In this document: piece by piece, positions 4,076-31,094 of the stretch
Position numbering within the stretch: position 1 is the stretch's first letter
Layout: each line of letters opens with the position of its first letter
From: Streptomyces sp. SPB162
Lineage (GTDB): Bacteria; Actinomycetota; Actinomycetes; Streptomycetales; Streptomycetaceae
DNA length: 64,000 nucleotides
Assembly: GCF_029504575.1 (NCBI RefSeq)
Contig: NZ_JAQFII010000001.1
Span: 2,454,501 to 2,518,500, forward strand
Direction: 5' to 3'
Notes under the pieces: generated by a model
The model's database searches: none
What the model saw: the letters and a program-made list of their open reading frames with translations, nothing else
What the model was told of the DNA's origin: nothing
Made by a program: the position numbers and the translations under genes

Positions 4076-4197
4076 TACTGGAGAGCCATGAGCAACGACA
4101 CCGGAGCCGTAGCCCGCCACCGCCACTACATCAGTCTCCGAAACGCCGACAGAGAAGTCCTCCGTACGACCTGGTCCATCGGGTACGGGGACCCCGG

Positions 4198-4937
4198 TGT
4201 CCCTTCTCAGCGAAGCGAGTCGTCGTCTCACCCAACCCACCCGCCAACCGAATCTTGGCGGGTCCGGCCCCGAGGGGTGGGCTGGGTCTGGAAGTCCGAG
4301 GCCAGTCCTGGAAGGGACTGAGACTGAGGGCGTCCGGAGCAGCGGAGTACAACTGCTGGCCGGAGCGCGTCTACTCCGGGGGCATCTGCCACGGGTGGAC
4401 GCACGCGATGAGCTCGGGGTGGTACAGCGTGCCCGGTCCGCACTGGAAGTCGAAGCGAGTGAAGTCCCCATCAAAGTCCACGCAGCGGTGGAACTTTGAC
4501 TGGTCGTCCGGGTTAGGGAAGAAGCCCTCCTCCGTGCAGGCAGGAGGTGCAGCGGCAGCCTGCGCGGGGACCGAGTAGGAGAGGCCGGCGAGGGCGAGCA
4601 GCAGAGCGGCTGCGACGCGGCGCGTACGATTCATACCCCTTAAACGATCTTTTCGGCCTCAGGATGTTCGCCGCAACAGGTGATGCGAGTAGCTCACCAG
4701 TCCGAGGGGACCTCCCTGTCCGCAGCAGGCCCTCGGCAGCCCGACGCCCAGCCGCCGGGTCACGAGCCATCAGCTCGACCAGTTCCTTGCCCAGTGCCGT
4801 CGCAGCCAGTGTCACCAAAAGCCGGGACCGTGGTTCTTGTCGTCTCTCATGCCTGAAGAACGACGCCTGACGCGGCACGCAACGCCTCACGCGACTGGGT
4901 TGGGTGAGACGACGACTCGCCTCGTTGAGAAGGGACA
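4198..4937. mobile_element. Transposon-like unit 1 (740 bp, 42-bp inverted ends)
   Basis: The ends 4198-4239 and 4896-4937 are inverted repeats matching at 40 of 42 positions; both start TGTCCCTTCTCA. The unit is flanked by CCCGG on each side (4193-4197 and 4938-4942), a 5-bp target duplication. No transposase is present. The cargo is the small secreted protein gene at 4371-4634 plus about 250 bp on its upstream side with no clear gene; a minus-strand open frame (4513-4965) runs through this part but overlaps the cargo gene. The ends resemble those of the adjacent unit 2. Probably a non-autonomous element moved in trans. Confidence 0.75.
4371..4634 (-). CDS. Small secreted CBM14/peritrophin-A-like protein
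   Basis: Product of 87 aa. Residues 1-28 form a Sec signal peptide: basic MNRTRRV, hydrophobic AAALLLALAGLSYSV, then PAQA-like cleavage. The mature part holds four cysteines spaced like a type-2 chitin-binding domain: CTEEGFFPNPDD, FHRCVDFDG, FDFQCGPGTLYHP, ACVHPW. Such domains bind chitin or other N-acetylglucosamine polymers outside the cell. AAGGGG lies very close to the ATG. The gene is the only recognisable cargo of transposon-like unit 1. Small CBM14 proteins are best known from eukaryotes but also occur in Streptomyces. The binding target is untested. Confidence 0.65.
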   Translation of the reverse strand: MNRTRRVAAALLLALAGLSYSVPAQAAAAPPACTEEGFFPNPDDQSKFHRCVDFDGDFTRFDFQCGPGTLYHPELIACVHPWQMPPE

Positions 4938-5245
4938 CCCGGCTACACCACGCAGTTCGGCACACCGCCGGAACTGTCCCGTCTCACTTGACCTGGTCCC
5001 GATCTCCGTTGATCTGGTCCGATCCGCCTGGGAAAGTCCAGGTCAAGTGAGACGGGCGTTCGTTCGGGTGTTTCGCCGTGTCAGGGAGTAACCCGGGCGC
5101 TTCTTGATCGTTCCACGTGGTGGTCGGCGTACTGGGTCCGGCCTCGGGGCTTGTCCTTTCCCGCGCGGTGGCGCGGTGTGATGGAGAAGTGCCGGATCGG
5201 GTTCCTACGGTGGGCCCCGCGCCGGGGCCGGGGGGATGTTCGAGG

Positions 5246-7069
5246 ATGTGTGGGCTGGTTGGTTATGCCGGGTTCACGGGCCGTGTGCCCCGGGGCACCG
5301 GGGACACCTCGCTGAAGGAGATGACGGAGACCCTGGCATGCCGGGGGCCGGATGCCTCGGCCAGGTGGGCCGAGGACGCGGCGGGGTTGGGGCACACCCG
5401 GCTGGCTACCGTGGACCTGGTCGGGGGCCGGCAGCCGATGGTCCTGGTGCGCGGCGGGCGCACGGTGCTGGCGGTGGCGTTCACCGGTGAGGTCTACAAC
5501 CACGCCCGCCTGCGCGGGGAGCTGACCGCCCTCGGGCACCGGTTCACCACCCGCAGCGACAGCGAGGTCGTGCTGCACGCCGTCGACGCCTGGGGCGAAC
5601 AGGCACCCGCCCGACTGGAGGGCATGTTCGCCTACGCCGCCTGGGAACCGGGCCCGCGACGGCTGACGCTGGCCCGGGACCGGTTCGGGATCAAGCCCCT
5701 GTGCTACACGCGCGTCGGCGACGCGGTGGTGTTCGGCTCCGAACCCAAGGCGGTGCTGGTCCACCCGGCGGTGACCGCGCGACTGGACCTGGACGGCTTG
5801 CGCGAACTGCTGCTGTCCGCCCACCCGATGATCAAGACACCCGGCCGCAGTGCCTTCGCGGGGCTGCACGAAGTCCCGCCCGCAACCGTGGTCACCGCGA
5901 CCCCGCAGGGGATTCGCAGCCACCGCTACTGGTCGCTGACCCCGGTCGAGCACAGCGAGGACCTGCCCGCCACGATCGCGCGCGTCCGGCACCTGCTCGA
6001 AGAGGCCGTCACCGGGCAGATGGCGGCCGACGTGCCGGTGAGCGTCCTGCTGTCCGGGGGACTGGACTCCAGTGCGATCGCCGCTCTGGCCCGCCCGGCG
6101 GCCGGGACCCTGCACACCCTGTCGGTGAACGTGGGCAACCAGGCCAGCGAGGCGGACGCCATGGGACGCGACCCGGACGGCCCCTACGCCGAGATGATGG
6201 TGCGCCACCTGGGCAGCTCCCACCGCCGGGTACTTCTGGGCGCCGACGTACTGGCCGACCCCGCCCACCGCGCCCGGGCCGGCACGCTGCGCGACGCGCT
6301 GACCCTCGGGGACTTCGACACCTCGCTGCTCCAGCTGTACCGCGCGGTTCGCGAGGACTTCCCGGTCACCCTGGCCGGCGACGGAGCCGACGAACTCTTC
6401 GGCGGCTACCGCTGGTTCACCCCCGCGGCCGCGGCAGCAGAATCCTTTCCCTGGGACACCGTGCTGGAACGCGCGGACCTGACCCGGCTGCTCGACCCGG
6501 CCCTGGCCGCCGCCCTGGACCTGCCCGCCCACCGCGCCGAACTCCACCGGGCCGCCTGCGCCGAGATCGAGCACCTGCCAGGAACCACACCCGCCGAGGC
6601 CGCACTGCGACGCGACAGCTACCTCAACCTCACCCGGTTCCTGCCCTGCCTGCTCGACCGCGCCGACCGCCTGAGCATGGGCGTCGGCCTGGAGGTACGC
6701 GTCCCGTTCCTGGACCACCGACTGGTCGAGTACGTCTTCAACACCCCCTGGAAACTCAAGACCTTCGACGGCCGCGAGAAGAGCCTGCTGCGCGCCGCCG
6801 TCACCGACCTGCTCCCCGAACCGGTCCTGACCCGCCGCAAGAGCCCCTACCCGGTCGTCCGCGACCCCGCCTACCGCACCGCCCTGACCCTCCAGGTGGA
6901 GCGCGTCCTGGCACACGCAGGCCCCGCCACCGACCTGTTGGACACCGCCGCCGTCCGCCGCCTGCTGCTGCACCCCCACGGCGCACACCGCTTCCCACGC
7001 GAGGGACTGGAACTCGTCCTGGACCTGGACCAATGGCTGCGCACCCACCGGCCCACCCTCCAGTTCTGA
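5246..7069 (+). CDS. asnB: Asparagine synthase (glutamine-hydrolysing)
   Basis: Product of 607 aa. ATG 5246 is chosen because it places the catalytic cysteine at position 2 (MCGLVGYAG), as in class II glutamine amidotransferases; the open frame extends further upstream. The glutaminase half contains RGPDASARW, RLATVDL and FTGEVYNH. The synthetase half contains the pyrophosphate loop LLSGGLDSSAI at about residue 270, then GDGADELFGGYRWF and RADRLSMGVGLEVRVPFLDH. All expected active-site elements are present, so it should transfer glutamine-derived ammonia to an aspartate or another adenylated carboxylate. Pairing with a thiolase in a transposon-like unit hints at secondary metabolism rather than housekeeping asparagine supply. 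Confidence 0.9.
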   Translation: MCGLVGYAGFTGRVPRGTGDTSLKEMTETLACRGPDASARWAEDAAGLGHTRLATVDLVGGRQPMVLVRGGRTVLAVAFTGEVYNHARLRGELTALGHRFTTRSDSEVVLHAVDAWGEQAPARLEGMFAYAAWEPGPRRLTLARDRFGIKPLCYTRVGDAVVFGSEPKAVLVHPAVTARLDLDGLRELLLSAHPMIKTPGRSAFAGLHEVPPATVVTATPQGIRSHRYWSLTPVEHSEDLPATIARVRHLLEEAVTGQMAADVPVSVLLSGGLDSSAIAALARPAAGTLHTLSVNVGNQASEADAMGRDPDGPYAEMMVRHLGSSHRRVLLGADVLADPAHRARAGTLRDALTLGDFDTSLLQLYRAVREDFPVTLAGDGADELFGGYRWFTPAAAAAESFPWDTVLERADLTRLLDPALAAALDLPAHRAELHRAACAEIEHLPGTTPAEAALRRDSYLNLTRFLPCLLDRADRLSMGVGLEVRVPFLDHRLVEYVFNTPWKLKTFDGREKSLLRAAVTDLLPEPVLTRRKSPYPVVRDPAYRTALTLQVERVLAHAGPATDLLDTAAVRRLLLHPHGAHRFPREGLELVLDLDQWLRTHRPTLQF

Positions 7070-7116
7070 CCACCCGGCCCCCACAACCTCCCCACCGAGA
7101 ACCACAGGAAACCGCC

Positions 7117-8337
7117 ATGCAGCACGCCGTCATCACCTCAGCCGTCCGCACACCCATCGGCCGCGCCCACAAGGGCGTCCTGGCCACCGTCCGCCCCGAC
7201 GACCTGCTCGCAGCCACCGTTGCCGAGGCCCTGGCCCGCACCCCGGGCCTGGAACCGGGCCAGGTGGACGACCTGGTCGTGGGCTGCGCCCTGCCCGGCG
7301 GTGAGCAGGGCTTCAACATCGCCCGGATCGCCGCCGTACTCCTCGGCTGGGACCACGTGCCCGGTGTGACCGTCAACCGCTTCTGCACCTCCTCGCTGCA
7401 GGCCGTCCGCATCGCCGCCCAGGCGGTGCGCTGCGGCGACGCCGACGTCGTGATCGCGGCCGGAGTCGAATCCCAGTCCCGTCTGGCCCAGGGCAGTTCC
7501 GACACCTGGCCCGGCACCGAGAACCCCGCCTTCCACACCGCACGGCAACGCACCATCCGACGCTCGCAGGCCGGCGCCGGGCCCTGGAGCGACCCGCGCA
7601 ACGAGGCCGGGCACCCCGACCCCTACATCCCGGTGGGGCTGGCCGCCGAGAACACCGCCGACCTGTACGGAATCACCCGCGCCGAGATGGACGCCTACGC
7701 CGCACGCTCCCACCACCTCACCCAACAGGCCCTGGACCAGGGCTTCCACTTCGGTGACATCGTCCCGGTCAAGACCCCGGACGGCACCACCGCGACCGCC
7801 GACGACTGCCCGCGCACCGGAGTGACCCAGCAGAGCCTGGCCGCCCTGCCGCCACGGTTCCGACCCGACGGCAGGATCACCGCCGGCAACAGCGCCCCAC
7901 TGTCCGACGGCGCCGCAGCCCTCGTCGTCATGTCCGAGACCTACGCCCGAGCCCACGGCCACACCCCGCTCGCCCGCATCCTGGCCACCGCCGTCAGCGC
8001 GGGCACCCCGGAGACCGAGGGCCCTGCCCCCGTCGCCGCGACCCGCACCGTCCTGAACCGCGCCGGCCTGTCCCTGGCCGACCTCGGCACGGTCGCCGGC
8101 AACGAGCCCTTCGCCGCCCAGATCCTGGCCTACTGCACGGAACTGGGACTGGACCCCGAACTGATGAACCCACACGGAGGCTCGATCGCCCTGGGCGAAC
8201 CCTACGGCGCGGCAGGGGCCCGACTGACCACCACCGCACTGACCACCCTGCGCCAGGACGACCTCGACACCGCCCTGATCAGCATCGTCGCCGCTGGCGG
8301 CCAAGGCATGGCCATGGTCCTGGAACGCACCACGTAA
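7117..8337 (+). CDS. Thiolase-family protein with altered active site
   Basis: Product of 406 aa; ATG 7117 lies 47 bases after asnB, same strand, probably one transcript. The fold and length fit an acetyl-CoA acyltransferase: SAVRTPIGRAHKG at the N-terminus, nucleophile Cys90 in NRFCTSSLQAV, NSAPLSDGAAALVV, and NEPFAAQ for the NEAF motif. Two catalytic residues are changed. The GHP histidine is Glu361 (ALGEPYGAAGAR), and the second cysteine of CxGGGxG is Val391 (SIVAAGGQG). Classical thiolysis or Claisen condensation needs both, so it may do a different acyl transfer or be inactive. The start and reading frame are secure. Confidence 0.8.
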   Translation: MQHAVITSAVRTPIGRAHKGVLATVRPDDLLAATVAEALARTPGLEPGQVDDLVVGCALPGGEQGFNIARIAAVLLGWDHVPGVTVNRFCTSSLQAVRIAAQAVRCGDADVVIAAGVESQSRLAQGSSDTWPGTENPAFHTARQRTIRRSQAGAGPWSDPRNEAGHPDPYIPVGLAAENTADLYGITRAEMDAYAARSHHLTQQALDQGFHFGDIVPVKTPDGTTATADDCPRTGVTQQSLAALPPRFRPDGRITAGNSAPLSDGAAALVVMSETYARAHGHTPLARILATAVSAGTPETEGPAPVAATRTVLNRAGLSLADLGTVAGNEPFAAQILAYCTELGLDPELMNPHGGSIALGEPYGAAGARLTTTALTTLRQDDLDTALISIVAAGGQGMAMVLERTT

Positions 8338-8672
8338 GACCACCACCCCACGCCGGCACACCCGGTACCCGCAAACCTGACTGTGTCACCCGACGAAAAC
8401 ACCCCACCGAACCACATGAATTGAGACGACGAACAGCACCAGCATCCACGGGACCAGATCGTCTGAGACTTCCCCCGACCACGCGTCTCAAATGATCTGG
8501 TCACCGCTGGTCACAGCCCTGACCCCGGGCCAGATCAATTGAGACGGGACAGGAACCCAGCGCCCGTCACGCGGCGACGTCCATAAACAAGATCATTACC
8601 GACGCTCGGTGGCTGCATCGTGGAGCCTGCCTGGCCTGTCCCTGGGAGGGCCCGGACCAACGACGCCGAGAC

Positions 8673-8821
8673 TCAACGCGGCCCTGCGCGACTACGTGGA
8701 CCGGGTCAAGCGGCTGGAGGCCGCTGAGAAGCTGGCTGCCCGCGGGGCCCAGGGTGAGTTCGATCAGGCCGCCGCCGCCCATGACGCTGTTAAGCAGGCC
8801 CGGCGGGCGGCCTTCGAGTGA
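8673..8821 (+). pseudogene. vapB antitoxin relic (5' end missing)
   Basis: From LNAALRDYVDRVKRLEA to the stop it matches the C-terminal two thirds of the VapB at 30387. The N-terminal DNA-binding part (VTQIDLDDEALAEAMR) and the operator are absent. They are replaced at ~8673 by the end of the interrupted gene starting at 4088. Confidence 0.8.
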
Positions 8822-9225
8822 TCTCGTATCTCCTCGACGCCTCGGCGCTGTGGCATCTATTCCGTACCCCAGGGGCGCTGCGACCTTAGGAGGGGCATAT
8901 CGCGACCGGAGTGTTCCGCGTCTGTGAACCCACCCGCACCGAGTTCCTGTTCTCGGCCACCAGTCCGTCCCACCGGGACGAACTGGCCGAGGAACTGGAC
9001 GCGTTGTGCCCGCTCTCAGCGGTGCCGAAGAACGCCTGGCGCTGGGTGGATACCGCCCAGTACAAACTCACCCAGTGAAGCCAGCACCGCTCCGCCGGCC
9101 CGATCGACCTACTGGTCTGCGCAACCGCAGTCCACCACGGCCACACCGTGCTCCACATCGACAACGATTTCGCCACCGTGGCCGGCATCCTCAAGGACGT
9201 GCAACAGCGAGACATCCGCGCCTAA
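8818..9225 (+). pseudogene. vapC toxin relic with two nonsense codons
   Basis: Colinear with the 135-codon vapC at 30617. Trp24 is TAG (8887-8889) and Arg87 is TGA (9076-9078). Most other codons are kept, including Asp7. Loss of the antitoxin N-terminus together with toxin inactivation is what selection would allow. Confidence 0.85.
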
Positions 9226-9294
9226 CACCCATCGGGTTCGTCGTCGCCGACCTGATGGCGGCCGCCCGGCGCCGTACTGGGTGCAGTATCGAAG

Positions 9295-11427
9295 TCACAG
9301 TCCCACATTCGTGAACCTGGACGGCTCTCTGAGCGCAGCCGCCGCACCCTCCAGATCAGCGAGCCGCGCGGCAAGGGTTGCCTCCGCGAGCCGAGCGGGT
9401 AGTGCGGCGCTGAACTTGAGGCCGTTCAGCGCACGTGCATCCACTGCGGGAAGACACAGTTGATCGACAGCTTCTGAAGTGGCTTTTCTCCATTCAGTGG
9501 GCGTCACGTCCTCGCGAAGTCGGATGCAGGTGTCCGTTGGCCTCTGGAGAGGATCGGCGATCGTGGTGAGTGTGGCGGCCAGGGTGGCGTTGGCCCGGTA
9601 GCCGGCCCAGGTCCACCAGCGCACGTTGGTGTCACGCCCGCCCCTGACGATGACGGTCCCCTCCGGGTGGACCATCTCCGAGCTGCTCTCGCGCGCCTGG
9701 GCCAGCGCAGCCGTGGCACGGGCGGTGAGGACCACCGGCGGGTCGGAGCCGAGCAGTACTTCTCTTGCCGCGCGGGTCAGTTCATACGATGCGGTCCGGC
9801 CGGAACCTACTCCTCCCCAACGCGCTTTGCCGCCGCCATCGACCGGTTCGACGAAGCATCGCCGCCGGGACCAGTCGATATACGTCACCTGCCAGTTCCG
9901 TCCTGCAAGGAGCAGCCGCCGAGGACCGGGCACCTCTTCTGTCAGTAGCGCGGGATTGGTCGTGCCGATCTCGGAGCGACCCGACAGCACCGTGAATTCC
10001 GGAGCTGCCGTGAACACTGCGGTGAGATCCATGAAGTGTCGGTATCCGAAGCGGCGTTCGGCTTCGGGACCAATGAAGAGCATCCCCCCGTCACGGTCCA
10101 GGAATCCCTCGTCAATCAGGTGTCGCACGATGGGTTCGGCGGAATTCCCGAAGGGGCCGAGTCCTCCCCACCATTCCTGCCACAGCCGGTCTCCGACTCG
10201 ATGTTCCTGCAAGCAGAGGGCCAGGACTTGTTGCGCGACGATGTGCCGTGGTTCCGGTGGAGCGATCACCGGCTCCACCCAGCCGCGCGACCACAACAGC
10301 AAGAGTGCTGCCGCACCGATCAGTCCGTCCTCGTCGACGGCGAGGAACAGGCAGTTGCGGGTGGAACCCGGCCGCCGGCCGGTACGGCCAAGACGCTGGA
10401 GGAACGAGGCGACAGTTCCAGGCGCGTCGATCTGGATGACGCGGTCCAAGTCACCTACGTCGATGCCCAATTCCAAGGTGCTAGTTGAGACGATGACGCA
10501 GTCACGCGCATCAGCGAAAGCTTCCTCCGCTCGCCGACGTTCATCCACTGAAAGTGATGCGTGAGACAGGAAAGTGGTCACACCCTTGGCGCGCAGGCTC
10601 TCTCCCAGCTTCTCGACCTGTCTGCGTGATTCGCAGAACACGAGCCGCTTCTCGCCGCGGTGGAGGGCTGCAATCACCGTGGCGGCATTCTCCAGGGACC
10701 CTACATAGTCAACCTGAATTTCGCCGGGCGGTGGCAGAACAGGGGATTCTTCGCGAAGGTGCGGAGCGACGACCTGAGCCGGGCGCTGGCCATATCCTGA
10801 ACCTTGTAGCCAGGTGAGCAGCTGATCCGGATTACCTACGGTGGCGGAAAGCCCGATGCGTTGCACAGGCCGCCCAACGACACGCTGCAGTCGCTCGAGC
10901 ACTGCCAGCAAATGCCATCCACGGTCATCCCCGGCGAAGGCGTGCACCTCGTCAACCACGATGGTTCGCAGTCCGGAGAAGAAGGCCCGGTGATCGACGT
11001 TGGTGCTGACGAGCATCGCTTCCAACGATTCCGGCGTGGTCAGCAGTACGTCCGGCCGGTTCCGCAGGATCCGCTTGCGGTGGGGTTGGGACACGTCCCC
11101 ATGCCATAGGGCGGCGGTACGCCCGAGCCAGGAGGTGTACGTCTCCAAACGCGGCAGCAGGTTGTTCAGCAGCGCCTTCAGGGGGCAGACGTACAGCACC
11201 GAGGTACCGGTCCAATTCTCCTGCGCCATCCTCGAAAGCAGTGGGAAGGCTGCTGCCTCAGTTTTCCCACCGGCGGTTGGAGCCAGGAGCACGGCGTCCG
11301 AGCCGTCAAGCAGCGGCTCAATCGCCTCCTCCTGCAGAGGACGCAGCCCAGGCCACCCCAGAGTGTTGACGATGTGATGGACGAGTCCGGGATGCAACCG
11401 ATCCAGCGGCTCGGGGGCGCCCGTCAT
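9295..11427 (-). CDS. brxHI: BREX type 2 helicase BrxHI (Lhr-like)
   Basis: Product of 710 aa, a superfamily 2 DEAD/DEAH helicase. Seen in order: a Q-like lead-in LRPLQEEAIEPLL, motif I APTAGGKTEAA, Ia VCPLKALLNN, motif II DEVHAFAGDDRGW, motif III GLSATVGNP, VFCESRRQVEKL, STSTLELGIDVGD and motif VI QRLGRTGRRPGS. The C-terminal region follows the Lhr pattern. It is the last gene of the pglWXYZ-brxD-brxHI operon; its ATG overlaps the brxD stop (ATGA). In BREX-2 the helicase accompanies the modification and exclusion machinery; its exact step is not settled. The last ~140 bases are duplicated at 31095-31233. Confidence 0.9.
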   Translation of the reverse strand: MTGAPEPLDRLHPGLVHHIVNTLGWPGLRPLQEEAIEPLLDGSDAVLLAPTAGGKTEAAAFPLLSRMAQENWTGTSVLYVCPLKALLNNLLPRLETYTSWLGRTAALWHGDVSQPHRKRILRNRPDVLLTTPESLEAMLVSTNVDHRAFFSGLRTIVVDEVHAFAGDDRGWHLLAVLERLQRVVGRPVQRIGLSATVGNPDQLLTWLQGSGYGQRPAQVVAPHLREESPVLPPPGEIQVDYVGSLENAATVIAALHRGEKRLVFCESRRQVEKLGESLRAKGVTTFLSHASLSVDERRRAEEAFADARDCVIVSTSTLELGIDVGDLDRVIQIDAPGTVASFLQRLGRTGRRPGSTRNCLFLAVDEDGLIGAAALLLLWSRGWVEPVIAPPEPRHIVAQQVLALCLQEHRVGDRLWQEWWGGLGPFGNSAEPIVRHLIDEGFLDRDGGMLFIGPEAERRFGYRHFMDLTAVFTAAPEFTVLSGRSEIGTTNPALLTEEVPGPRRLLLAGRNWQVTYIDWSRRRCFVEPVDGGGKARWGGVGSGRTASYELTRAAREVLLGSDPPVVLTARATAALAQARESSSEMVHPEGTVIVRGGRDTNVRWWTWAGYRANATLAATLTTIADPLQRPTDTCIRLREDVTPTEWRKATSEAVDQLCLPAVDARALNGLKFSAALPARLAEATLAARLADLEGAAAALREPSRFTNVGL

Positions 11428-12752
11428 GGAAGCTCCAGCTCGATCTCGTCGACGCTGTTTGCTGCCGCGTTGCGCTCTACCTCGCTCAGCTCAATGGCGT
11501 TCACTGTCAGCGCGTAGTGCTTGCGAGGGTCAAAATCGTCGAATTCGTCGACCCGGTCCAGTACGTCCGCGACGAGCTTACGCAGGAACAGCCGCGGGGC
11601 GATCCCGACCCGACCGCCGAGCTCGCCTGTCACGGCAGTGGCCAACTCAGCAACGTACGCGTCATCGACCCGCGCGGCGATGCGCTCAGGGTTCTTGGCC
11701 GCGCCCGCGTACAGATCCCTGACCGAACGACCGAGTTCACCAAGGCGCACGAGATCGAAGCCGGTCAGCCGCAGCTGGACCGCCCGCGGTGAATCGAACC
11801 GCGTATCGGTCGAGAAGTCCGTTGCCAGCCGTTGCGCGAGCGGTGGGAGCCGCTGTGCACCCTGCTGCCCGTCATAGAAGGCGGGGGTACCGGTGATCAC
11901 CAGGAAGAGGCCGGGGAAGCGCCCGGCGTCGATCTCGTCGAGAAGCTGACGCAGCGCGTTCAGCCCCTTCTCCCGTACGTCTCCCCTGACCCGTTGAAGG
12001 GTCTCGATCTCGTCCAGGACCACCAGGAGCCCGGGATGCCCGCAATCCTTCAGCACGGTGAGCAACCCTTGCAGGAAGCCAAGCGCGGCAAAGTGGTCCA
12101 GATCTCCCCGCACCCCTGCGGTCCGCCGTGCGGAGGCGGCCACCGATTTCTGCCCACCGAGCCAAGCAATCACGGCCTCGGCGGTCGCCGCGTCCCCTGC
12201 GAGCGTGGCCTTGCGGTAGCCGCGCAGAGCCGCGGAGAACGCTGGGGTGGTCTGGGCGACCGCGCGCAGTCGCTCCTCCATCAGGTTCTCGACCGCTGCC
12301 TCCAAAGCCTCTTCGTCATCAGCCAGTTCCGGATGCGCCTCATCCACCTCCTCCGCAAGGGTGTAGAACCAACCATCAACCACCGAGCGCAGGGCGCTGG
12401 CCGGCTCGGTCGCCGTCGTCAGCCGCTCGGTGAGTCGGCGGTAGACGGTTTCCAGTTTGTGCAGCGGCGTTTCCGTCTCGGAGATTTGGATCTCGGCGGT
12501 GGCGAGCCCGGCGCGCTTGGCCCGTTCGGCAAGCCAGCGGGCGAAGAACGTCTTCCCGGATCCGTACTCGCCGCGGATTGCGTGGAAGGACGCGCCGCCC
12601 GATGCGATCGTGGAGATTCGCTCGTCCAGTGCAGGTGCGAAGCGGTCCAGTCCGACCGCGAACAGGTCGAGCCCAGCCTGCGGCACAGTCCCGCGCCGCA
12701 GCGCGTCGATGACTTCTCGGCGGCGGGCCGCGCTGATCGGTGCGGTGCTCAC
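11424..12752 (-). CDS. brxD: BREX ATP-binding protein BrxD
   Basis: Product of 442 aa, a P-loop ATPase. Walker A is GEYGSGKTFFAR near residue 65; a Walker B-like strand is LLVVLDEIETLQRV. The N-terminus (RREVIDALRRGTVPQAGLDLFAVGLDRF) and the ITGTPAFYDG motif are typical of the BrxD (DUF2791) family. GTG 12752 overlaps the pglZ stop (GTGA), and its own stop overlaps brxHI. BrxD is found with BrxHI in type 2 and related BREX loci and is thought to act as an ATPase partner of the helicase; the mechanism is not established. Confidence 0.9.
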   Translation of the reverse strand: MSTAPISAARRREVIDALRRGTVPQAGLDLFAVGLDRFAPALDERISTIASGGASFHAIRGEYGSGKTFFARWLAERAKRAGLATAEIQISETETPLHKLETVYRRLTERLTTATEPASALRSVVDGWFYTLAEEVDEAHPELADDEEALEAAVENLMEERLRAVAQTTPAFSAALRGYRKATLAGDAATAEAVIAWLGGQKSVAASARRTAGVRGDLDHFAALGFLQGLLTVLKDCGHPGLLVVLDEIETLQRVRGDVREKGLNALRQLLDEIDAGRFPGLFLVITGTPAFYDGQQGAQRLPPLAQRLATDFSTDTRFDSPRAVQLRLTGFDLVRLGELGRSVRDLYAGAAKNPERIAARVDDAYVAELATAVTGELGGRVGIAPRLFLRKLVADVLDRVDEFDDFDPRKHYALTVNAIELSEVERNAAANSVDEIELELP

Positions 12753-15515
12753 ACGCCCTCCTTGGGCAGCTCAAACTGCTCACGCAGCGTCTCTCGGTTG
12801 AGCCGGACTCTGGCCCGGGAATCGATCAGGCTGATGACCTCGTATCCTTCGATGTTCAGCAACCGGGTCAGCACGGTCACGAACCCCTCGGGGCGGGTGT
12901 TCGTACGACCGCCCGAGGCGACGGCTGCCGCGGCGACTGCCGCGAGCGAGAGTGTGCCGCCTGAGGCGTCAAGCGCGTCGATGACGGCGGCCACCACCTT
13001 GCGGTCGGGCACCTTGCGGACGAACTTGCCCTGATGCTCGTAGATCTTGGTGCCGACGATCTGCTGGCCCAGTGTGAGCACGGCCGGCGCGGGCGTCACC
13101 GGCACCTCTACCGCATCGTCAGCGAAGAGCTCGCCCGCCTGTGGCCGTGGCTTCACTTTGGCCTGCGCAGTCTTCTTCACTGTCTTGACTGGTGGGCGTG
13201 CAGGTACGGACGCTGCTGCGTCCGCACCCCACCAAGCAGGCTGCACGGACTCACGCGGCAGCTCACTCCAGCCATCCGGCGCCAGCGCGGCCGAAGGCGC
13301 CAGGACCACCACCGGAACCGTCATTTCCGCGAGCGCCGCGCCACCGTGATAGCCGGCCTTGCGCGGCGTGTAGCGGATCACCTCGGACCACGGCACGATG
13401 ACCCGGCCACCGTTCTCCAGCACCCGTGGCCCAGTCAGCGCGACCTCTCCCTCGCCGGGCAACGCCCCCGTACGCCAGCGAGCCGATTCCACCCCTTCGG
13501 CAGGCAGCGGTCCCACCTCGGCCCCCGTCCGGTCAAGAACATGCCCATGGTCGGACACCAGCACCACGGGACGCCCCTGCCCGCGAGCGGAGTTAAGAAG
13601 TTCGGCAAGGTACTTCACCCGGACCACCGACCAATCGGCGAGAGAACTCTGCTGCCCGTGATCGAGACTCTCGTCAATCGTGTTCAACACGACGCCTACC
13701 ACAGCGTCCGAAGCGATCGCCGCGACCAGTCGCGGGTCGAGCAGCTGCCCTGCCGGTCCGGGGATCTCGCTCTTGTGGAAGAGAACGGCCTCGTGCTGGT
13801 GCTGCTTCCAGAAGGCGGCGAACCCTTCCTTCTCCGCGCTCTGTCCACCCAAGACCGGGCGTCCGCACAGCAAGGTCGCCCGGCTGATCACGGTCACCGA
13901 AGGGATCATCGCGACGGCAGCGGCCCGCCGCCCGTCGCCGGACAGTTCGCTCCACCGCCCCGCCCCGGTCAGCTCCTCGCCGAGCTGGGCCGCGACCGCA
14001 CTGCTCATCCCATCCAGGACAAGCACCAGCGGCGGCCGCTTTTCGGCCAGCTTCAGTGCAACCTTCCGTAGAACGTCCTCAATGGGCAGAGTCTCCTCGG
14101 GCTGTCCGGCTGTGGCGTGCTGAGCCCACGGCTCCAGCCGGCCCGCAAAGGCCTCGTCGAGCAGGGCACGCCGCCGCCGCGCCGCGTCGTGCACCGTGCG
14201 GTAAGCCTGAGCCAGGGCGGGTTCAGCCTCCTCGTCACCCACCCACAGCTGGGCCAGCGCCCGGTCCACCCACCCCCAATCGGCGACATGTGCGCGCACG
14301 GCCTGCCCGACCGAAGACACGACTGGGTCGGGGGCGTCCAGCCAACGGCTCAGCCGCACCGCCATGCGCGCGAGTTCGACCCGCTTCGGGTAGAGAAGAG
14401 CGGCAAGTTGATGCTCTGCCACGTGTTCCCAGGCTGCCTGTGCCGCTTGTGGCCCTTCGGGCAGGGCGTTCGCTAGCCGATGCAACCGCGCCTGGAATCC
14501 GGAAGGAAGAAAGGGGTTCTCTTCCAATGCGGCGGTGAGATGGGCATTGCCTGCCAGCTGGTTAGCCTGGTGGAGCACATCGACCACCCGCTGTCGGGCT
14601 TCCTCGCTCTGTGGTCCTCGCCCCGATGCCTCGCCGATCCAGCGGGTCAGACTGCCTTCCACCGCTCTTGCGTAGGCGCGCAATTCGGAGGGCCTGGATC
14701 CCGACCCGAACACGGATCCCAGTGCCACAGCAGCATCCGGCGACGCCGCGTCATCGGTCATGACTGAGGCCAACACGCCCAGGGCGGTGGCCTCAGTACC
14801 CCGCCCCTGGAGCGCAAGCCGCAGCAGCACAGGGGCTGCCTCTCCCGCGCTCTGTGCCAGCCATTCGGTGATCCCCTGGCGTTCGGCCTCAGACAGCCCG
14901 GCAAGGCGCTCGGGGCCCCCCGGGGTACGGGACCAGGCCAGCAGTGCGTCGACGTCCACCGACACCCCGCCCTCGTAGACGCCCTCGAGTCCGAGCCGCA
15001 CGCCGACTAGGGCACGCATCGCCGCGTCCAGGGTGAGCACGGCCCCGCGTTGTGGCCACCCCCCTTGCGCCGCATCAGGCTCGGCTGCGATCAGGGCAGC
15101 GGGCAGCCATTGCCACGGGTCACGGCGCATCCGCGGATCGAGGTCGGAGGCGCCAAAGAGCTGCTTGACGATATCGACCTCGTCAACGGCGATGATCTGT
15201 GAGCGCACCATCTCGCCCAGCAGGTCGAGGCTGATCTGATCCCCCGGCACATCCGTGGTGACCACGAGCAAGTCTGCCGCCTCAGCGGGCCAGGTGGTCC
15301 TGCCAGGCGTTCGTGAGGCCGAGTACCGACGTGGCGTGGGTGATCCGGACCTTGCGCCGCGCCCCATCACCGGTGGGAACCGTGAACTCCTCAGGCCCAC
15401 CCGCTACGTATTTCCCATGCACCAGGAGTAGTCGACGGCCCCTGGTACGGGCCAAGCGAGTGGTCAGTAGGCCGGTGATGACCCGCTGGTTGAGTTCAGG
15501 CACGAGGGCTCCCAT
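12749..15515 (-). CDS. pglZ: BREX type 2 phosphatase-domain protein PglZ (frameshifted)
   Basis: Intact length would be 921 aa. The 5' end starts at ATG 15515 ([17 protein letters not shown]), overlapping the pglY stop, but meets TGA after ~77 codons. The body continues in the next frame from AEAADLLVVTTDV. One extra base in the G run 15287-15289 (C run on the coding strand) explains this. The C-terminal half has alkaline-phosphatase/PglZ signatures: LVLDGMSSAVAAQLGEEL and VLVSDHGHVLDRTG. PglZ is essential in the S. coelicolor Pgl system and toxic without partners in published work. If the frameshift is real the operon is crippled; a base-calling error is at least as likely. Confidence 0.85.
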
Positions 15516-18500
15516 CAGAGATCGCCGACCGGCAGGCTCGCACTGTCTCCCAGTCCGGTCGGCAACACCTGCCAGTTGATCTCGATCTCGACGTTCGGGT
15601 GAGCTGCCGCATAGTCACGGATCTCGTCCTGCACTGCGCCGAGAGCCCGGGTGAGCGCGTTCTCGAGCACGCTCCCGCCCTCCGCGGCCTTGATCCGCCG
15701 GGAACGACGAGAACTGATCGTCGGTGCGTCGTCCAAGGAGGGCGACCGTCGCTCACCTTGGTTGGTCTGCCCGTCATCCTCGGGACCCGGGACCTTCACG
15801 GGGGGCTCAACGGGGGGCGGGGGCGCGACCGGCGCGACGGTACTCAGCCGCGCCGCCTCATTGATCAGCGCCACGGCTTGGCTGCGTGCCCCACTGAGCA
15901 CCGGTGCCAGCCTGGTATCGAACTCATTCTTCGAAGCGGCGTCTGCAATCTCCGAAAGAAGCCGCACAGACCGGTCGGCGAGGCCGTCCCCGCGCTCGGT
16001 GTACTTTCGTACGCTGTCAATCAGTTCCCAGTCGGTCCCCTCAAGAGCGTCCAACACCTCCTGAGCGGAGGAGATCACCTTGCCCAGTTCGAAGTACGTG
16101 CTCGCGTAGGTCGCCGCAGCAAGGTCGCGGGTGAGGGGTGTCGCCTCTGGCGTCTGCTTGATCCGAGCGAGGAGGTCGGCCGCGTCCCGCACCGACTGCT
16201 CGCGTGCGGTCGGTGACTCGCCGGTGACGCCGAGGGCTGAGCGGTAGCGGAGCAGAGCACGTCGCAACCCGGTGACAGCACTTTCGCGCGCCTCAGCCTT
16301 GCTGCGGACATCCGCTGCCAGCGCGTTGACGTTACGGGCGAACAGCACCGTCGGCACAGTCGTGCCGAACAGCGCCGCAGCCCGCTCGTGCGCCTTGGCG
16401 TACTCCTCCTCGCTCGGCCGCTCCTGTGCTCGCAGTGCCCAGCCGGCACCGATCTGGTCCAGGGACGGCGAGGCGTCAGGCCTGCCGTTGTACACCCAGG
16501 AGCGGTCCGAGAGGAGGGCGTAGGTCGCGATCACCAGGTTGGAAACCAACTTGTCGAGCCCTGTCCAACCCAGCTCGGCGATCCAAGCGCGGATGTCTTC
16601 GACTGCGAAGTCGCCCTTTGCACCGTGCTTGCCCGCCTGCTGGTCGATGTGCCGGCGCCAGTCCGTGGAGACGTTGAGCGGCCCGTCATGCACCTCGCCC
16701 AACTCCAGTGGATGCACGATCCGCGCCACATCGCCCAGATCGCGGCTGTCGACGACGACCCTGCGCGAGCTGTCGTCCATCGCCTTGACGATCCACCCGT
16801 ACACCATCTTGAACTTTGCGGGAGTGACCTGCTTACGGCTCTCCTGACGGTCGAAGTTCGGGTGCTTGGGATACATGGCGTCCAGCAGCCCGTCGGCGAG
16901 CTTCAGCAAGTTGTACTCGAAGGACCCACCGCCCTGGAGCTGAGGGGAGTGCCCCGCGTACAACGCATGGACGTGTTTGCCCTCGGTAACCTGGGCGCCC
17001 AGGTCACTCTCGTTGGCCTTAGCGATTCCGTACGCCTGATGCAGGACCTGCCCCAGCTGCGCGACGAGCGTCTCGCGCTGCGCCTCCAGTTGATGCCGCA
17101 CCCGCACCTGGTCGTCAGAACCCAGATGGGTGGCGAAGTCCTTCAAACGGTCTCGATCCAACAGGTAGTTGATCTTCAGTAGGCGGCCGAGCTGGGTACC
17201 CCGCTGATCGGAGATGAAGGACGGCAACCAGACGAGGGTCGCCGCGTCCGGCTTCTCGCGCTGCAGGCGGTAGACCCGGTTCTCGTCTGCGCTGGGCGTG
17301 CCCTCCTCATCGAAGGGGTAGTCAACAACGCAGCGGATCCGGTCCGGGGTCGACGGCTCGAACTGTGCGTCGGGGAGAATCTGCGGATCGCCCACGTTCT
17401 CGAATACGAACTCCGCAATGCGACGCGTGCCGTGCCAAACGATCTCACGGTCCGCTACGAGCGTACCGTTGTCGACGATCTTCAGCTCTCGCCACAGCCA
17501 CTCCTGTACCCACCGCTTGCGTGCCCCTTGGGTGTCCTTCTCGCCGACGCTGTCCAGGATCGGTTCGACATCCAAATCGGACAAATGCAGCGTGAACACC
17601 GGGTCCAGGTCGTGGCCGTCGCTGCGCAGTTCTCCGGGAAACTGCGCCTGGAGCTCCTGCATTCGCCTGACCACGATCCGGTCCTCCTGACCGATGCGCG
17701 AGCGGATCGAACCGTGATTCAGCGCGTTCAGCCGCGGCCCCGTCAACCGGGCGAGAGCCGGTACCTCGGGTGCGAGGTAGGCGAGCAGCATCGTCTTGAT
17801 GAAGCGTTCGTCAGCCTTGTACTTGGCATCGCCGGCAGACCCATACTTCTCCAGGAGGTGGTCCTTCACCTTCCCGTGGAAGCGAGTCGCGGCCTCCGCC
17901 TCGCTGCGCAACCGGTCGGTGAAGGCCTCGCCCATCCCATCGGCCAAGACGTCCCACAGGTCGCCGAGCGGGATCAGCTCACCCACCTTCATGTCTTCGC
18001 GCCGCTTGTAGAGCATCTGCTGGAGCAGCTTGAGTCCGGTGCGCTCGCGCTGGAGCGCGCCGGAGAGAGCTACCAGCACGTTGAGCAGGACGGGCGAGAC
18101 CGGATAGAGCGCCTTGAAGTCCGCCCAGTCTGCGTGCGTGACGCCGTTGGCGTCGAGCAATACGTCGCGTACCGACTGGTTCGAGGTCTCGATCCGGGCG
18201 AAGGCCGCTTCCAGGGCGGCCTTCGCCGCATCGTCCTTAGGCTTGAGGACACGCTCCTTGATGATCTCCGGAAGGTTACGGTCCTCCAGGCTGATCGGGT
18301 CGATACGTCCCGCCAGATACTTGACCTGCTGTTCGAGATTCTTGGCCTCGGCGCCAACCGCGTCCGAGCCGATCAGCTCGGACAGATCGCGTTGGCGGGA
18401 GATGAAGGAGACGACAGGCAGCGCGCGGCCACCCGTACCCGATTCGATCAGCTTGACCAGCTTGTTGACCTCGTCGTTGACGAAGGTCCGCTCACGCAGA

Positions 18501-19406
18501 TGCGCCTGGAGCCAGAGGATCAGCTCGTCGAGGAAGAGGATCAGTCCGTCGTAGCCCAGCGATCTGGCGTGCCGGCTGACGATGTCCAGGCCGTTCTCCA
18601 GCGGGAGGTAGGCGTCCTTCATGCCAAGTGCCCCGCGGGAGTACGAGGAGTACGGCCCGGACAGCAGCGCGGAAGCCAGCCACTCGCGGACCTTCGGTTC
18701 GGGCGATGCGGCCAGAGCTTGGTCGAGGAGTGGCGGCGTCCAGACCTTCGGAGCCTCCTTGACGTCGAGGTCCTCCAGGTCACCCTCGTCCTCCGCCGCA
18801 GCAGTTTGCCGGGCGGGTGCCTGTTCGTCCTTCGGCAGCGCAGGGTCGCCGAGCCAGCGAACGAACTGCGCATCGTCGGCGAAGAACGCCCGCTGGCGGC
18901 GGGCATCGTCGAACATCGCGTCTGCCCGGTAGACCGGAGGTACAGGCGCATCCGGATGCAACTGCTGCACTGTGCGGACGTACCCACCGAGGATCGCCGA
19001 GTCGAGGTCGGTCGCACCGACCAGGTGGAAGGGGACCATCAGGAATTTGCGGTTCCGCAGCCAGGAGTCGTGATCCGCGATGACCGGCTGGAGCGCAGGC
19101 TTGGCTCGGGCAGCCGGGTCGTTGGAGAGGATCGCGTGCAGCACGGTCATGAAGTGGCTCTTGCCGGAACCGAAGGAACCGTGCAGATAGGCCGCGTTGG
19201 ACGACCCCGCCTGCACCGACACCTCAACGATCTTCAGTGCCCGACGGAGTGCCTGCTCGAGCTGAGGAGTGACCACGTACTCGCGGACCCCGCTCGGCAG
19301 TCTCGTCGAAGCCACCAGACAGTTCGATCTTGAACGAACCAGCCAGAACGTCCTTGGAAAGGTCCAGTACATCCCGGAGGTAGAGCTCGCCGTTGCCGTT
19401 ACTCAT
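15515..19406 (-). CDS. pglY: BREX type 2 ATPase PglY (frameshifted near 5' end)
   Basis: Intact length would be 1296 aa. ATG 19406 ([20 protein letters not shown]) overlaps the pglX stop by 8 bases. After about 37 codons the frame must shift by one base to reach [16 protein letters not shown]. The C run 19288-19291 (GGGG on the coding strand) has one base too many. The body has Walker [14 protein letters not shown] and a Walker B-like [13 protein letters not shown]. It is a large multidomain ATPase required for Pgl/BREX-2 immunity; in S. coelicolor it sits next to pglZ. The length and gene order match the family. Confidence 0.88.
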
Positions 19407-22400
19407 CGTCTTCCACCGTCTCCATCGCGAGCGTTGACTGCGTCTGCACGGCCGTGCCTGCCCCCTTACGCCCCCGGGTCTTCTTCACCGGACGCCAGTC
19501 AGTGAGGGCAGCCGGGGTGAGCTGTGCGTTCGCCAATTCCCCGTCCAGGAAGCTCTGGAACTCCTCGGCGGCAGACTCCTCGCCCCATTCCTCGTCGATA
19601 TCCCCGAACCACTGACGCAGCCACGGCATGAGCTCCGCGATCCCGGCGAGCAGCGGCACGAGCCGCTCGGTCGGCCAGTCCTGCTGTTTGCGGCGCTCGC
19701 TCACGAGGTTCAGCAGGGCAGTCGCCTGGTCACGCTGGTCCCAGCCGGCCCAGCCGAGGAGGAGCGTCGGGTCGGAGTCGGGATTCGCGTCCGGGTAGGA
19801 CACGAAACGCTCCTTGGGCACGTCGAGCTTCCCGCGGTTTGACCAGTAGGACTGCTTGGTGAAATCCGCAGAGGCGTACTTCGGAGGCACGGCAATGTCC
19901 AGGCGCTCCCCCGTACGGTCTTCCTCGCGCTGCTGCTCCCAGACGCTCTCCCACTGTGCGCGCTTGCGCAAGCCAGTGTCCTTGTAGCGATAGGCGGCGA
20001 GGTAGGGGACGTGCTCGGTGTCGACTACGTCTGCCAGGACCAGGGCGAGAGAAAGGTTCGGCTTACCGAGGTGAGTCGCGTAGAGGCGCGCGGCGTTGAG
20101 GATCGCCTCCGCGTCTGGCCGCTTCTCCAGCTCGTCGGCGAGCTGGCCTACGGTGAGAGTGCGGGGCTGCTCGAAGTCGTTGAGGACGTGGTACCAGAAG
20201 GCTTTGTCCTCGCAGCGGTCCAGTAGCCAAGTGCGGAGTGCGACCTTCTCGCGCTTCTCCCAGGGGTCGGCTGCCCAACGCCGCTTGCACTCGGGGCGCT
20301 CGATGAGCGCGAGGTCACGGCGTGCGGAGATGGTGTCAATACGAGCCTGCACGATGTCCCGGTACGAGTCCGGCCAATGGGCCGGGATCTCGGTGACGGG
20401 GGTGGACCCGTGCCGGTTAAACCAAGCGGTCTCCGCCTTACCGGCTGCCTGCTTACGCGCGAGCACGATCTCGAATGCGCGCTCGCCGAGTTTGACCTGA
20501 GGGGGTGTGCTTGGAGAGGGAGCGGTGAGGCGAGTTCTCTCGGCGTCAGTGAGGAGCCCGTAGGCGTGGTAGACCTCCCAGTCCAGCTCCTCCTGAAGCG
20601 CGATCATGCGGTCCCGGGTGCGGGTCCAGGCGGTGTGGGCGGCGTCGAGGCGAGCCCGGGTGGGCGGTTCGTCGGCGGTGCAAACGACGGACGGCTCATG
20701 GGTGGCTAGCTCCTGCGCTAGGGCGTCGAGGGCACAGCCGAGGGGGAGGGGGAGGCGGGCAGGAAGAGGGAACTCCTGAAGCTTGGTGCCGGTGAACTCG
20801 TAGAAATCTTCCCAGGGGACAGAGGTAGTCCGTGCGCCTCGACTATCCACACTGTTGCCCTTGTTGTGGCAGACCTGCTTGAGCCAGAAGCACGCCACCG
20901 ACGAGTTGAGCACCCCAAGCAGCGCCAAGTGATCGTCCTCGGTCGATCCCTCCCTCAACTTAATCACAGGCGCATGGCGGTTAAAGATACTGCCACCGCG
21001 ATCAAGAATGAAGTGATTATGCGTGGCAACGAAAGCGAAGGTAATGGACAATGGAGTCTGATATGGGGACGCCGTGTACTGCATGTACTCCCACCATCGA
21101 AGCCCCGCATCCTCCATATTCCCCTGGAAGGTTCGCCGTTCTGCTAGCAATGCTCGCCAAGGCCACATCTCGATCGCAATTTCGCCATCAGTAACTTCTC
21201 GCACATAAGGAAACCAGATTCCCTGTTCGGGCGAGGAGCACCAGTCCCGATTAGACTCTCCCGACAGAAGGGGTTTGATTCCCGAACGAGGAGCAACTGT
21301 TCGCAACGTCGAACGAAGGGGCCGCATGTAGGCTTCATCCGCGCCAGCGCGGATGCCTCTTCCGATGGGTGGAGAAATTGAATCAAGCATCTTAATTGTT
21401 TTTTGCGTTAGCCTGGCCAGGACTACACTGGCCTGGCCGCCAGAGAGAGACCAAGGGGGATCGACCCATCTTGTGCGTGGCGTGTCCAGGACGGTAACCC
21501 AGTCATCCTCCGTACCCGGCTGGTTGATCCGCTTAGTGATGGACGTCCATACAAGGCCTCTTGAAGGTTCTCTCGGCTGCGAAGGCTCCCCACGAATCCC
21601 TAGGACAGCTCTAACTTGGTCATCCTGAAAAGCTAGCCTGTTCCGACCAATCAAGATAACTGTCGGAGTTCCGTGTCCCGGAATATAGGCCCCAGAGGTG
21701 TCGATGACGTGTGTGAGGTCGACTTTCTGGTGGAACCAGTCGATCAGCTTCCTACCGAACTCTCGCTTCATGAAGGAGTTCGCCGTAATCTGCCCGGCGA
21801 ACCCCGCCGCGCGCTCCGACCCGCTCGCGCGCACCGCGAGCTCGAAAATGCGCTGTGCGAAAGGCACCGATAGCGCATACGTCCCCGCGCATGTGTCGTA
21901 TGCATCCCGGTAATTCTGGTTTTCTTTTTTGTCCTTGACCGTAATGTAGGGCGGGTTGCCGACCACCAAATGGTACGAGCCCTTGCCTAGCAGGTCACAG
22001 TCTTGTACGTACTTGTCGACGTCTTCCGTCCGATACAGAAACTGCTTCGTACTAGAGAAAAGGTCATCGCCCACGACGCCCGCGTCCCGCCCATGCAGCA
22101 GCGAGTCCCCCACTGCGATATTGATCGGGAACTCCCCCAACACATCCAGCCGCCGCTTTTCCGCAGCCTTTAGGACGGCAACGAGCAAACGGAATCGTGC
22201 TACAGCCACTGCAAACGGGTTCTTATCGCAGCCATGTACCGAGGCCAACGCCCGCCGAATCAGGGTCCAGTCGTCCGCAGCCTTGTCCGTATTCCGCCAC
22301 TTCTCCAACAGCCGCTCGAACATCCCCAGCAGGAAGTGACCCGACCCGCACGCCGGGTCGATCGTCCTCAAACCCGCAGGGAGTTCGCGTACAATGCCGT

Positions 22401-23130
22401 GGCCGTCACGGACCTCGACGATTGGCTCGAGGCCGAACTCAGCCACTGCCGGCTCCAGCGTCAGGTCGAGGATGAACTCCTCGACGAATACCGGGGTCTG
22501 GAGCAGCGCATACGTTTTCCGGGCGTGCTCGCTCAGGTCCTGGTACAGGTCTCCGAGGAATCGGGTGTCCAGGTCTTCGTCCACGAACTCGTGGACGATC
22601 TCGCCGTCAGCCCCCACCCGCCTCCAGAACTTCAGGAGCCCGGTCGCCGCCTCGTACGAGGGCTCGATCTCCCACAGGGGGTTGTGCGCACGGTCGAACA
22701 GACCAGCGACCGTTCGGTTGGTCCCGGCAAGATGGTCGAAGGCGGCGATGATCCAGTCGCGGTCGTTCTTCTCCGGGTAGGCCGCGAAGAACGCCGCGTC
22801 GTGGTCCTCCGCGTCCTTAAGACGTTCGCCGACGCCCGCCAGCCACGGCCTGGCGACGAGCTCGTTGTCCTCGCAGAAGCGGACGAAGACGCAGCCCAGG
22901 ACCCACGCCGCCGCGACCTGCGTAACCCGCTCGTCCCTCCACGCCTCGTACGTGGCTGCCGTACGCCCGGCATCGAATGCCTTGGCGTACTCCGCCCTCA
23001 GCTCCTCCCGGTACGCCTCCACCGAGTCGCTGCGCGCTCGCAGGTCGTCTTCCAGGAGCGAGACCTGCTTGCGGAGGTCCCTCAGCAGACCGTCCTTGTT
23101 GCTGCCGCCACCACTACCGCGCGCGCTCAC
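19399..23130 (-). CDS. pglX: BREX type 2 adenine-specific methyltransferase PglX
   Basis: Product of 1243 aa. GTG 23130 is chosen because it overlaps the pglW stop (GTGA) and starts [16 protein letters not shown]; the open frame upstream is only a shadow of pglW. SAM motif I is [12 protein letters not shown] near residue 285 and catalytic motif IV is [11 protein letters not shown], both intact. A coiled region [18 protein letters not shown] precedes them. PglX is the m6A methylase and target-recognition component that separates self from phage DNA. In S. coelicolor a G tract in pglX gives phase variation; I see no long homopolymer here. GC and codon use drop around 20.9-22.1 kb (target-recognition part), suggesting local exchange. 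Confidence 0.93.
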
Positions 23131-30386: not shown

Positions 30387-30620
30387 GTGTCAGTCACCCA
30401 AATTGATCTCGACGACGAGGCGCTGGCAGAGGCCATGCGGTTGATGGGCCTCACGACGAAGAAGGAGACGGTCAACGCGGCCCTACGCGACTACGTGGAC
30501 CGGGTCAAGCGGCTGGAGGCTGCTGAGAAGCTGGTTGCCCGCGGGGCCCAGGGTGAGTTCGATCAGGCCGCCGCCGCCCATGACGCTGTTAAGCAGGCCC
30601 GGCGGGCGGCCTTCGAGTGA
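30387..30620 (+). CDS. vapB: VapB-family antitoxin
   Basis: Product of 77 aa from GTG 30387. The N-terminal VTQIDLDDEALAEAMRLMGLTTKKETVNAALRDY is the ribbon-helix-helix DNA-binding module of actinobacterial VapB proteins. The C-terminal part (EKLVARGAQGEFDQ) should bind and block the toxin. Its stop overlaps the vapC start (GTGA), so toxin and antitoxin are translationally coupled. The operator lies directly upstream. It sits in the right copy of the direct repeat flanking the BREX unit. Confidence 0.9.
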   Translation: MSVTQIDLDDEALAEAMRLMGLTTKKETVNAALRDYVDRVKRLEAAEKLVARGAQGEFDQAAAAHDAVKQARRAAFE

Positions 30621-31024: not shown

Positions 31025-31094
31025 CGCCGACCGAGTTCGTCGTCGCCGACCTGATGGCGGCCCGCCTGCCGCCGTACTGGGTGCAGTATCGAAG

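Follow-up and report, generated by a model that had tools for sequence, protein, structure and literature searches.

The stretch of DNA analyzed here, referred to as the window, comprises 64,000 nucleotides of a contig of Streptomyces sp. SPB162 (NZ_JAQFII010000001.1), and at positions 4975 to 8551 it carries a putative transposon of 3,577 bp with two genes inside, one for an AsnB-type amidotransferase (asnB) and one for a thiolase-fold protein. The terminal arms of this element form an inverted repeat with 20 of 22 positions identical, extendable to 26 nt at 88%, and an exact 5-bp target-site duplication (TSD), GGAAC, flanks it on both sides (Table 1). Exact copies of TGTCCCGTCTCA within the window are confined to the two arm sites; when a single mismatch is tolerated, the count rises to 4, compared with a mean of 0.43 in shuffled sequences, and none of 100 shuffles reached 4. 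The two remaining near matches, at 4198 and 4937 (TGTCCCTTCTCA), mark the two termini of a separate element, a 740-bp neighbor. Further copies of the end site lie inside each end (+21 and +63 on the left; 51, 81, and 118 bp in on the right). The two long sense open reading frames (ORFs) of the element match Asn_synthase/GATase and Thiolase_N/C (Pfam), and no transposase was seen among its listed ORFs, with the Pfam scan covering the two long ones. The inverted ends, the duplication, the internal end-motif copies, and the absence of an internal transposase had all been part of an original prediction made from the window alone, and each is borne out. The description of a transposase-less two-gene transposon thus stands, whereas its placement in the IS21 family does not, since the ends belong to elements encoding TnsA, TnsB, TnsC, and TniQ.

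Related elements with Tn7-like ends

Ends of the same type bound complete transposons in other genomes. In Actinacidiphila oryziradicis (locus L039), such an end pair encloses 6,177 bp encoding TnsA, TnsB, TniB/TnsC, and TniQ, with no exact TSD. Elements of 6602 bp in a Streptosporangiaceae metagenome bin (L117) and of 6220 bp at L139 also encode TnsA, TnsB, TnsC, and TniQ and have exact TSDs (CCTGG and ACGGC, respectively), with one stop in tnsB in the latter. TnsA of L039 scored 277 bits on NF033179 (cutoff, 110) and fell under the cutoff of Pfam TnsA_N, and its TnsB scored slightly above the cutoff of Mu-transpos_C and under those of rve and HTH_32. Alignment of 17 elements (the window element and 16 others, with 95 to 130 bp taken) separated two distinct end types, TnsA-side (R) and TniQ-side (L), both of which carry repeated TCTCA...GATCTGG sites; the left end of the window element is of the R type, and the right end is of the L type. 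The window element has the 5-bp duplication and the asymmetric arrays of ~22-bp end sites (predicted TnsB sites) of Tn7-like transposons and has no internal tnsB, tnsA, tnsC, or tniQ, which are present in L039, L117, and L139. Because the tns genes lie outside the window element but inside elements with the same ends, we regard it as a non-autonomous relative rather than a full member. Read from the sequence of its ends, its duplication, and the helper family of its relatives, the element at 4975 to 8551 is thus a non-autonomous Tn7-like transposon.

The original prediction had favored the IS21 family and an istAB-type helper. TG/CA termini with repeated subterminal sites fit that family but are undiagnostic, as they also occur in Tn7-like elements, and the top fold match of a TniQ region, a weak one described below, is IstA. 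However, no IstA or IstB lies inside the element, the elements with the same ends carry Tns proteins and TniQ, and their TnsB scored 20 bits on the IS21 model NF033546 (cutoff, 160) and 64 bits on IS481 (cutoff, 224). We therefore consider an IS21-family derivative very improbable.

The same ends recur in other genomes and surround other cargo, as the original prediction had anticipated. A near match to the end is present in 9 of 35 genomes of the genus (the window genome counted), and 56 of 394 family genomes have an end that differs at one position or none. In 14 of 18 genomes picked from end carriers, a TnsB relative was found at 1e-20; three of these reach 83 to 100% identity, and the others range from 26 to 63%. 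In a survey covering the window, L039 to L058, and L116 to L173, 19 of 259 opposed end pairs had an adjacent identical 5-mer, compared with 3 matches summed over ten control offsets (0.25 expected by chance per offset). Among these 19 pairs, L049 and L121 represent one contig, and we make no claim of membership for L041 8095, L046, L049, or L050. The survey yielded many short transposase-less elements, several with 5-bp duplications (Table 1). One genome (G143) has copies of a 1,723-bp element at three sites. Those at L165 and L166 are 100% identical, and those at L166 and L167 agree at 99.8%; the L166 and L167 copies have differing TSDs, and L165 has no duplication. The similarity between L166 and L167 continues 74 bp beyond the element on the R side and takes in the facing terminus of both (see below). 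Elsewhere in the window genome, a third end-like sequence (C1:3577280; two mismatches) has other genes around it and no visible partner, and it was set aside. At L141 (4840 to 7212), a Tn7-like remnant consists of pieces of tniQ and the tnsA region around a gene that reads like an aminoglycoside phosphotransferase fold.

Table 1. Features of the window element, its neighbor, and transposase-less relatives at other loci
Feature	Position or locus	Strand	Basis or remark
TSD, left copy GGAAC	4970..4974	.	read directly; exact TSD
Terminal 22-bp site, TnsA-side (R) end	4975..4996	+	end type by alignment with 16 other elements
R end second site, direct, 21 bp on	4996..5017	+	repeat family and alignment
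R end third site, inverted at +63; 19-nt perfect inverted repeat of terminal site	5038..5059	-	
Cargo gene 1, AsnB-type amidotransferase, 607 aa	5246..7069	+	nearest solved relative TsnB9 (7YLZ)
Cargo gene 2, thiolase-fold protein, 406 aa	7117..8337	+	catalytic His to Glu (GEP), second Cys to Val
TniQ-side (L) end innermost site, direct, 118 bp in	8412..8433	-	repeat family and alignment
L end subterminal direct site, 81 bp in	8449..8470	-	
L end subterminal inverted site, 51 bp in	8479..8500	+	
Terminal 22-bp site, TniQ-side (L) end	8530..8551	-	alignment
TSD, right copy GGAAC	8552..8556	.	exact TSD
Neighboring 740-bp mini-element, other Tn7-like end type	4198..4937	.	42-nt end repeats at 95%; TSD CCCGG, 4193-4197 and 4938-4942
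87-aa protein with CBM_14 domain, cargo of neighbor	4371..4634	-	PF01607, 6e-9
Transposase-less element, 199-aa orphan	L041		TSD CGAAC
Transposase-less element, 217-aa protein	L137		TSD GCGGT
Transposase-less element, methyltransferase-like protein	L140		TSD CGGGC; protein under family cutoffs
Transposase-less element, 263-aa protein	L164		TSD CTGGC
Transposase-less element, 305-aa lipoprotein-like protein	L166, L167		TSD ACGAG (L166), GCCAG (L167)
Transposase-less element, short-chain dehydrogenase/reductase (SDR) and LysR-like	L136		duplication 4/5 positions
Gene-free elements, 214-237 bp	L043, L044, L152, L159		

Cargo genes and their origin

The product of cargo gene 1 aligned over its full length with 7YLZ at 467 bits, compared with 120 bits for Escherichia coli AsnB. 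7YLZ is described as TsnB9, the hydroxyamidotransferase of trichostatin biosynthesis (PMC13418202, PMC13284220, PMC11957118). TsnB9 is the closest relative of known structure; the partner here is a non-canonical thiolase, and a gene for the amidooxygenase (TsnB6/7) is not among the two cargo genes. In cargo gene 2, the nucleophilic Cys is kept, and GHP is changed to GEP and the second Cys to Val in 8 of 8 cassettes compared; because two catalytic residues are replaced, the product is unlikely to have ordinary thiolase activity. The gene pair may form or transfer amide or hydroxamate groups on carboxylic acids, and it would then represent a mobile pair connected with the making of amides or hydroxamates in natural products.

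The asnB and thiolase genes occur side by side in 7 other genomes of the 394, at 80 to 89% DNA identity. Element ends were not found around these seven pairs, where there were just single weak end-like matches with 4 to 5 mismatches, and their neighborhoods are unrelated, save for two with one side in common. Homology to the three furthest-reaching pairs ends at 5056 to 5084 and 8331 to 8372, inside the end arrays of the window element, and for the remaining four, the left homology ends at 5214 to 5243. Since the pair exists elsewhere without ends and the homology stops inside the end arrays, the pair was probably captured by the transposon. Relatives with asnB-thiolase but without ends had been named in the original prediction as grounds for rejecting it; they do exist, in these seven genomes, and the ends and the duplication in the window are not undone by them. 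Formally, the same seven genomes would also fit an ordinary chromosomal operon that happens to be flanked by end-like sequences, but this explanation is contradicted by the alignment of both ends with those of 16 other elements and by the exact TSD, and it is the least probable of those considered here.

Close to the element, window positions 9295 to 27575 have matches to BrxHI, BrxD, PglZ, BrxC/PglY, PglX, and PglW (PADLOC) and read as a type 2 bacteriophage exclusion (BREX; Pgl) defense set. Three block copies (8668 to 9432, 30465 to 31232, and 46010 to 46593; 86 to 90% identity) read like a vapBC toxin-antitoxin pair, with the start of the first gene missing from the first copy.

Spacing between R ends and other transposon termini

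The R end of the window element is separated from the end of the 740-bp neighbor by a gap of 37 bp. We scored a facing terminus of this kind as the motif TGTCC[CT]GTCTCA with at most three mismatches, starting 27 to 38 bp outside the element end and reading away from it; the pattern was first noticed in flanking sequences and then tested. The motif was present outside 19 of 38 R ends, 3 of 46 L ends, and 156 of 20,000 random windows. In a fresh sample (353 genomes, genus of G064), for which motif and distance were fixed beforehand, it was present at 7 of 24 R ends not in the earlier set; this sample gave 26 ends, of which L220 and L238 were already in that set, both without the motif. For the count over all loci, 1/57 R and 3/50 L pattern matches were dropped, as their bases 13 to 24 were unlike the family, leaving a facing terminus at 23 of 56 R ends, 2 of 47 L ends, and 449 of 50,000 random windows (Fisher P of 7e-6 for R versus L); the binomial value for the pattern presumes independent loci, and the loci are partly dependent. 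Six of 12 TSD-bearing elements pass. Statistically, the spacing and orientation (R end, 27 to 38 bp) are nonrandom. The gap sequence itself has an identity of 0.29, compared with a background of 0.28, while bases 13 to 24 of the facing ends, which lie outside the search motif, keep 0.49. The facing neighbor is complete with its own TSD in 3 of 19 junctions (the window, L043, and L135). These results suggest that insertion is often directed, with the TnsA-side end leading, to a point ~32 bp away from where another Tn7-like transposon ends, and they may reflect active targeting.

A separate search for one common type of facing terminus (target-type end) found it in 8 of 394 genomes, and in the loci from that search, 9 of 9 such ends were solitary, with no further end closer than 100 bp; two additional target-type ends in the same output, from loci fetched for R/L-type ends, both had a nearby end. 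One of the target-type loci, L254, holds a 670-bp element that has a duplication. L251 and L253 are 98% alike over 12.8 kb, starting at the outermost base of the terminus and running inward, with unrelated sequences outside, as expected of a mobile element. The target-type termini at L248 to L254 (G120, G393, G343, G209, G143, G118, and G077) are 88 to 98% alike over the first 43 to 49 bp in six, and they stand alone with differing sequence behind, L251 and L253 excepted.

A side-by-side arrangement could also arise if the window element were the same non-autonomous Tn7-like transposon without any homing to ends, with Tn7-like elements simply accumulating at safe sites or mobile islands. Tn7 elements are known to stack at attachment sites, and the window region is island-like, with BREX genes and repeated blocks. 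However, pile-up would not predict a sharp peak at 28 to 35 bp at one end only (23/56 R versus 2/47 L), the gap is unconserved, whereas a common attachment site would require conservation, and the L041 element, judged by eye, is located within another terminus. We regard pile-up as unlikely. The neighbor may instead have come second and targeted the R end, or both families may target each other; facing termini are frequently R-like too, with a second site 20 to 21 bp in, and the arrangement is thus partly symmetric. Either course appears unlikely, given that the target-type ends from their own search were alone in 9 of 9 cases, whereas R ends are often paired, and that the element at L041, judged by eye, interrupts another terminus. 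The family of the window element would thus be the homing partner of the pair, although the targeting could still be mutual.

TniQ, proposed mechanism, and known systems

Elements L116, L117, L122, L134, and L139 have in common a TniQ of ~377 aa, with 53 to 72% identity to that of L116. At L118 and L119, where the R ends are 39 to 40 bp from CCGATATATCGTTGAG, the match to this TniQ is confined to ~65 N-proximal residues, as expected if the remainder reads the target. In Foldseek, the top match of TniQ was IstA bound to IS21 donor DNA (E value, 0.04; probability, 0.96; template-modeling score, 0.13), followed by a paired domain, and transposase helix-turn-helix models gave weak matches from the excised TniQ region alone. 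The same region gave nothing against TnsB by blastp and 0 matches against PDB sequences. These weak likenesses hint that TniQ may read the target through a two-part helix-turn-helix region, and we conjecture that it borrowed an end-binding domain.

Several observations weigh against the interpretation as a whole. By the motif used, 33 of 56 R ends have no facing terminus, and the fresh sample (29%) was weaker than the first (19/38). Of the 23 positives, 17 start with TGTC, the match at L163 is poor, and the L147 junction was counted from both sides. The partner end of the neighbor was found in the 3 junctions noted above; L166 has one poor candidate, and the other 15 have none in the 1.4 to 8.6 kb searched. 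Four R ends (L118, L119, L214, and L231) lie 38 to 40 bp from the different common sequence CCGATATATCGTTGAG, perhaps a host regulator site that serves as a different attachment site. In the seven of the eight target-type loci searched by tblastn (1e-3), no homologues of the L039 Tns proteins and no helper of the target family were found. Of the five elements with the common TniQ, L116 alone passes the strict facing-terminus motif; L122 has a CGAA-type core, L117 and L139 have a bare TGTC at 32 to 33 bp, and L134 has nothing. The structure model of TniQ is poor (mean predicted local distance difference test score, 47.5), its best part being two three-helix units at residues 101 to 210, and none of 204 Foldseek matches reached an E value of 0.001. 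No empty site for 4975 to 8551 was found among the matches listed from the 394 family genomes, and none of six fetched loci joins both flanks, with right-flank homology beginning at 8668, 117 bp past the element. Finally, the window genome (91% complete) has no close TnsB, its best match being 33% identical over ~170 aa. This sole TnsB-like match lies at G000:C1:2323657-2324151, within a 320-aa frame.

The lack of a close TnsB in the window genome leads us to infer movement in trans, and mobilization by helper proteins encoded elsewhere is likely. Because only one of the five TniQ-sharing elements passes the strict test, we have lowered our estimates both of homing by TniQ and of the interpretation as a whole. 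We nonetheless find it probable overall that the element is a non-autonomous Tn7-like transposon with captured cargo, belonging to a family that often inserts ~32 bp outside another Tn7-like end. More tentatively, and with doubts that slightly outweigh our confidence, we propose an actinobacterial Tn7-like family that homes via TniQ to other Tn7-like termini, ~32 bp away and head to head, with one helper serving a pool of mini-transposons.

In the overall interpretation, a chromosomal asnB-thiolase pair would have been captured between ends of ~80 to 110 and 180 to 220 bp, as the homology stops suggest. TnsA, TnsB, TnsC, and TniQ of the type encoded by elements in other genomes would bind the asymmetric end arrays and move the element in trans by cut and paste, leaving the 5-bp duplication. 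TniQ would act as the target reader, placing the insertion ~32 bp outside another Tn7-like end with the TnsA-side end first; here, the 740-bp CBM14 mini-element would be the landing mark. In the more tentative proposal, the pool served by one helper would include asnB-thiolase, SDR plus LysR-like, methyltransferase-like, lipoprotein-like, and other cargo, one or two genes each.

The landing rule would be surprising if confirmed. A selector that reads the ends of other transposons would constitute a new targeting mode and help to explain mobile-element clustering, with mobile genes gathering in transposon-beside-transposon clusters and host genes left unharmed. Among the titles and abstract openings of the open-access literature searched, none dealt with end homing or with Tn7-like elements of actinomycetes that carry genes but no transposase. 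The survey by Benler et al. (2021) demanded TnsB beside another Tn7 gene, so that transposase-less elements fall outside it; it lists an acetyl-CoA acetyltransferase among the cargo and describes its clade 2 as mostly from Actinobacteria and experimentally uncharacterized (PMC8649781). A survey of Tn7-like cargo that starts from TnsB misses elements of the kind described here, which appear to carry metabolic and regulatory genes in several Streptomycetaceae genomes.

Tn7 makes a 5-bp duplication and has end sites that are packed at one end and spaced at the other (PMC11406308). The window element resembles Tn7-like transposons in its 5-bp duplication and in its asymmetric arrays of ~22-bp sites, closely spaced at one end, and the complete elements with the same ends encode TnsA, TnsB, a TniB-type TnsC, and TniQ. 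As in Tn7-like transposons, one defined end, here the R end, may face the target. It differs in that it has no tns genes and in that its apparent target is the end of another transposon, not a host gene.

To our knowledge, gene-carrying transporter insertion sequences (tIS), passenger-associated transposable elements (PATEs), and miniature inverted-repeat transposable elements (MITEs) have been described around insertion sequence elements. Like them, the window element is transposase-less, has paired ends and passenger genes, and would be expected to depend on a helper in trans, whereas its ends are Tn7-like, with several sites. Transposase-less derivatives of Tn5053/Tn402 that are moved in trans are also known, as class 1 integrons.

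Tn5053 and Tn402 themselves are described as "res site hunters," in which TniQ directs insertion to the resolution sites of other transposons (PMC11406308), and these are likewise Tn7-like elements sent by TniQ into the DNA of another transposon. They are without TnsA and have a resolvase and resolution sites, whereas here TnsA is present (L039) and the putative mark is a terminal end array. The target of Tn5053/Tn402 is the resolution site of a resolvase. Among the 19 target arrays found here, 3 are the termini of TSD-bearing elements.

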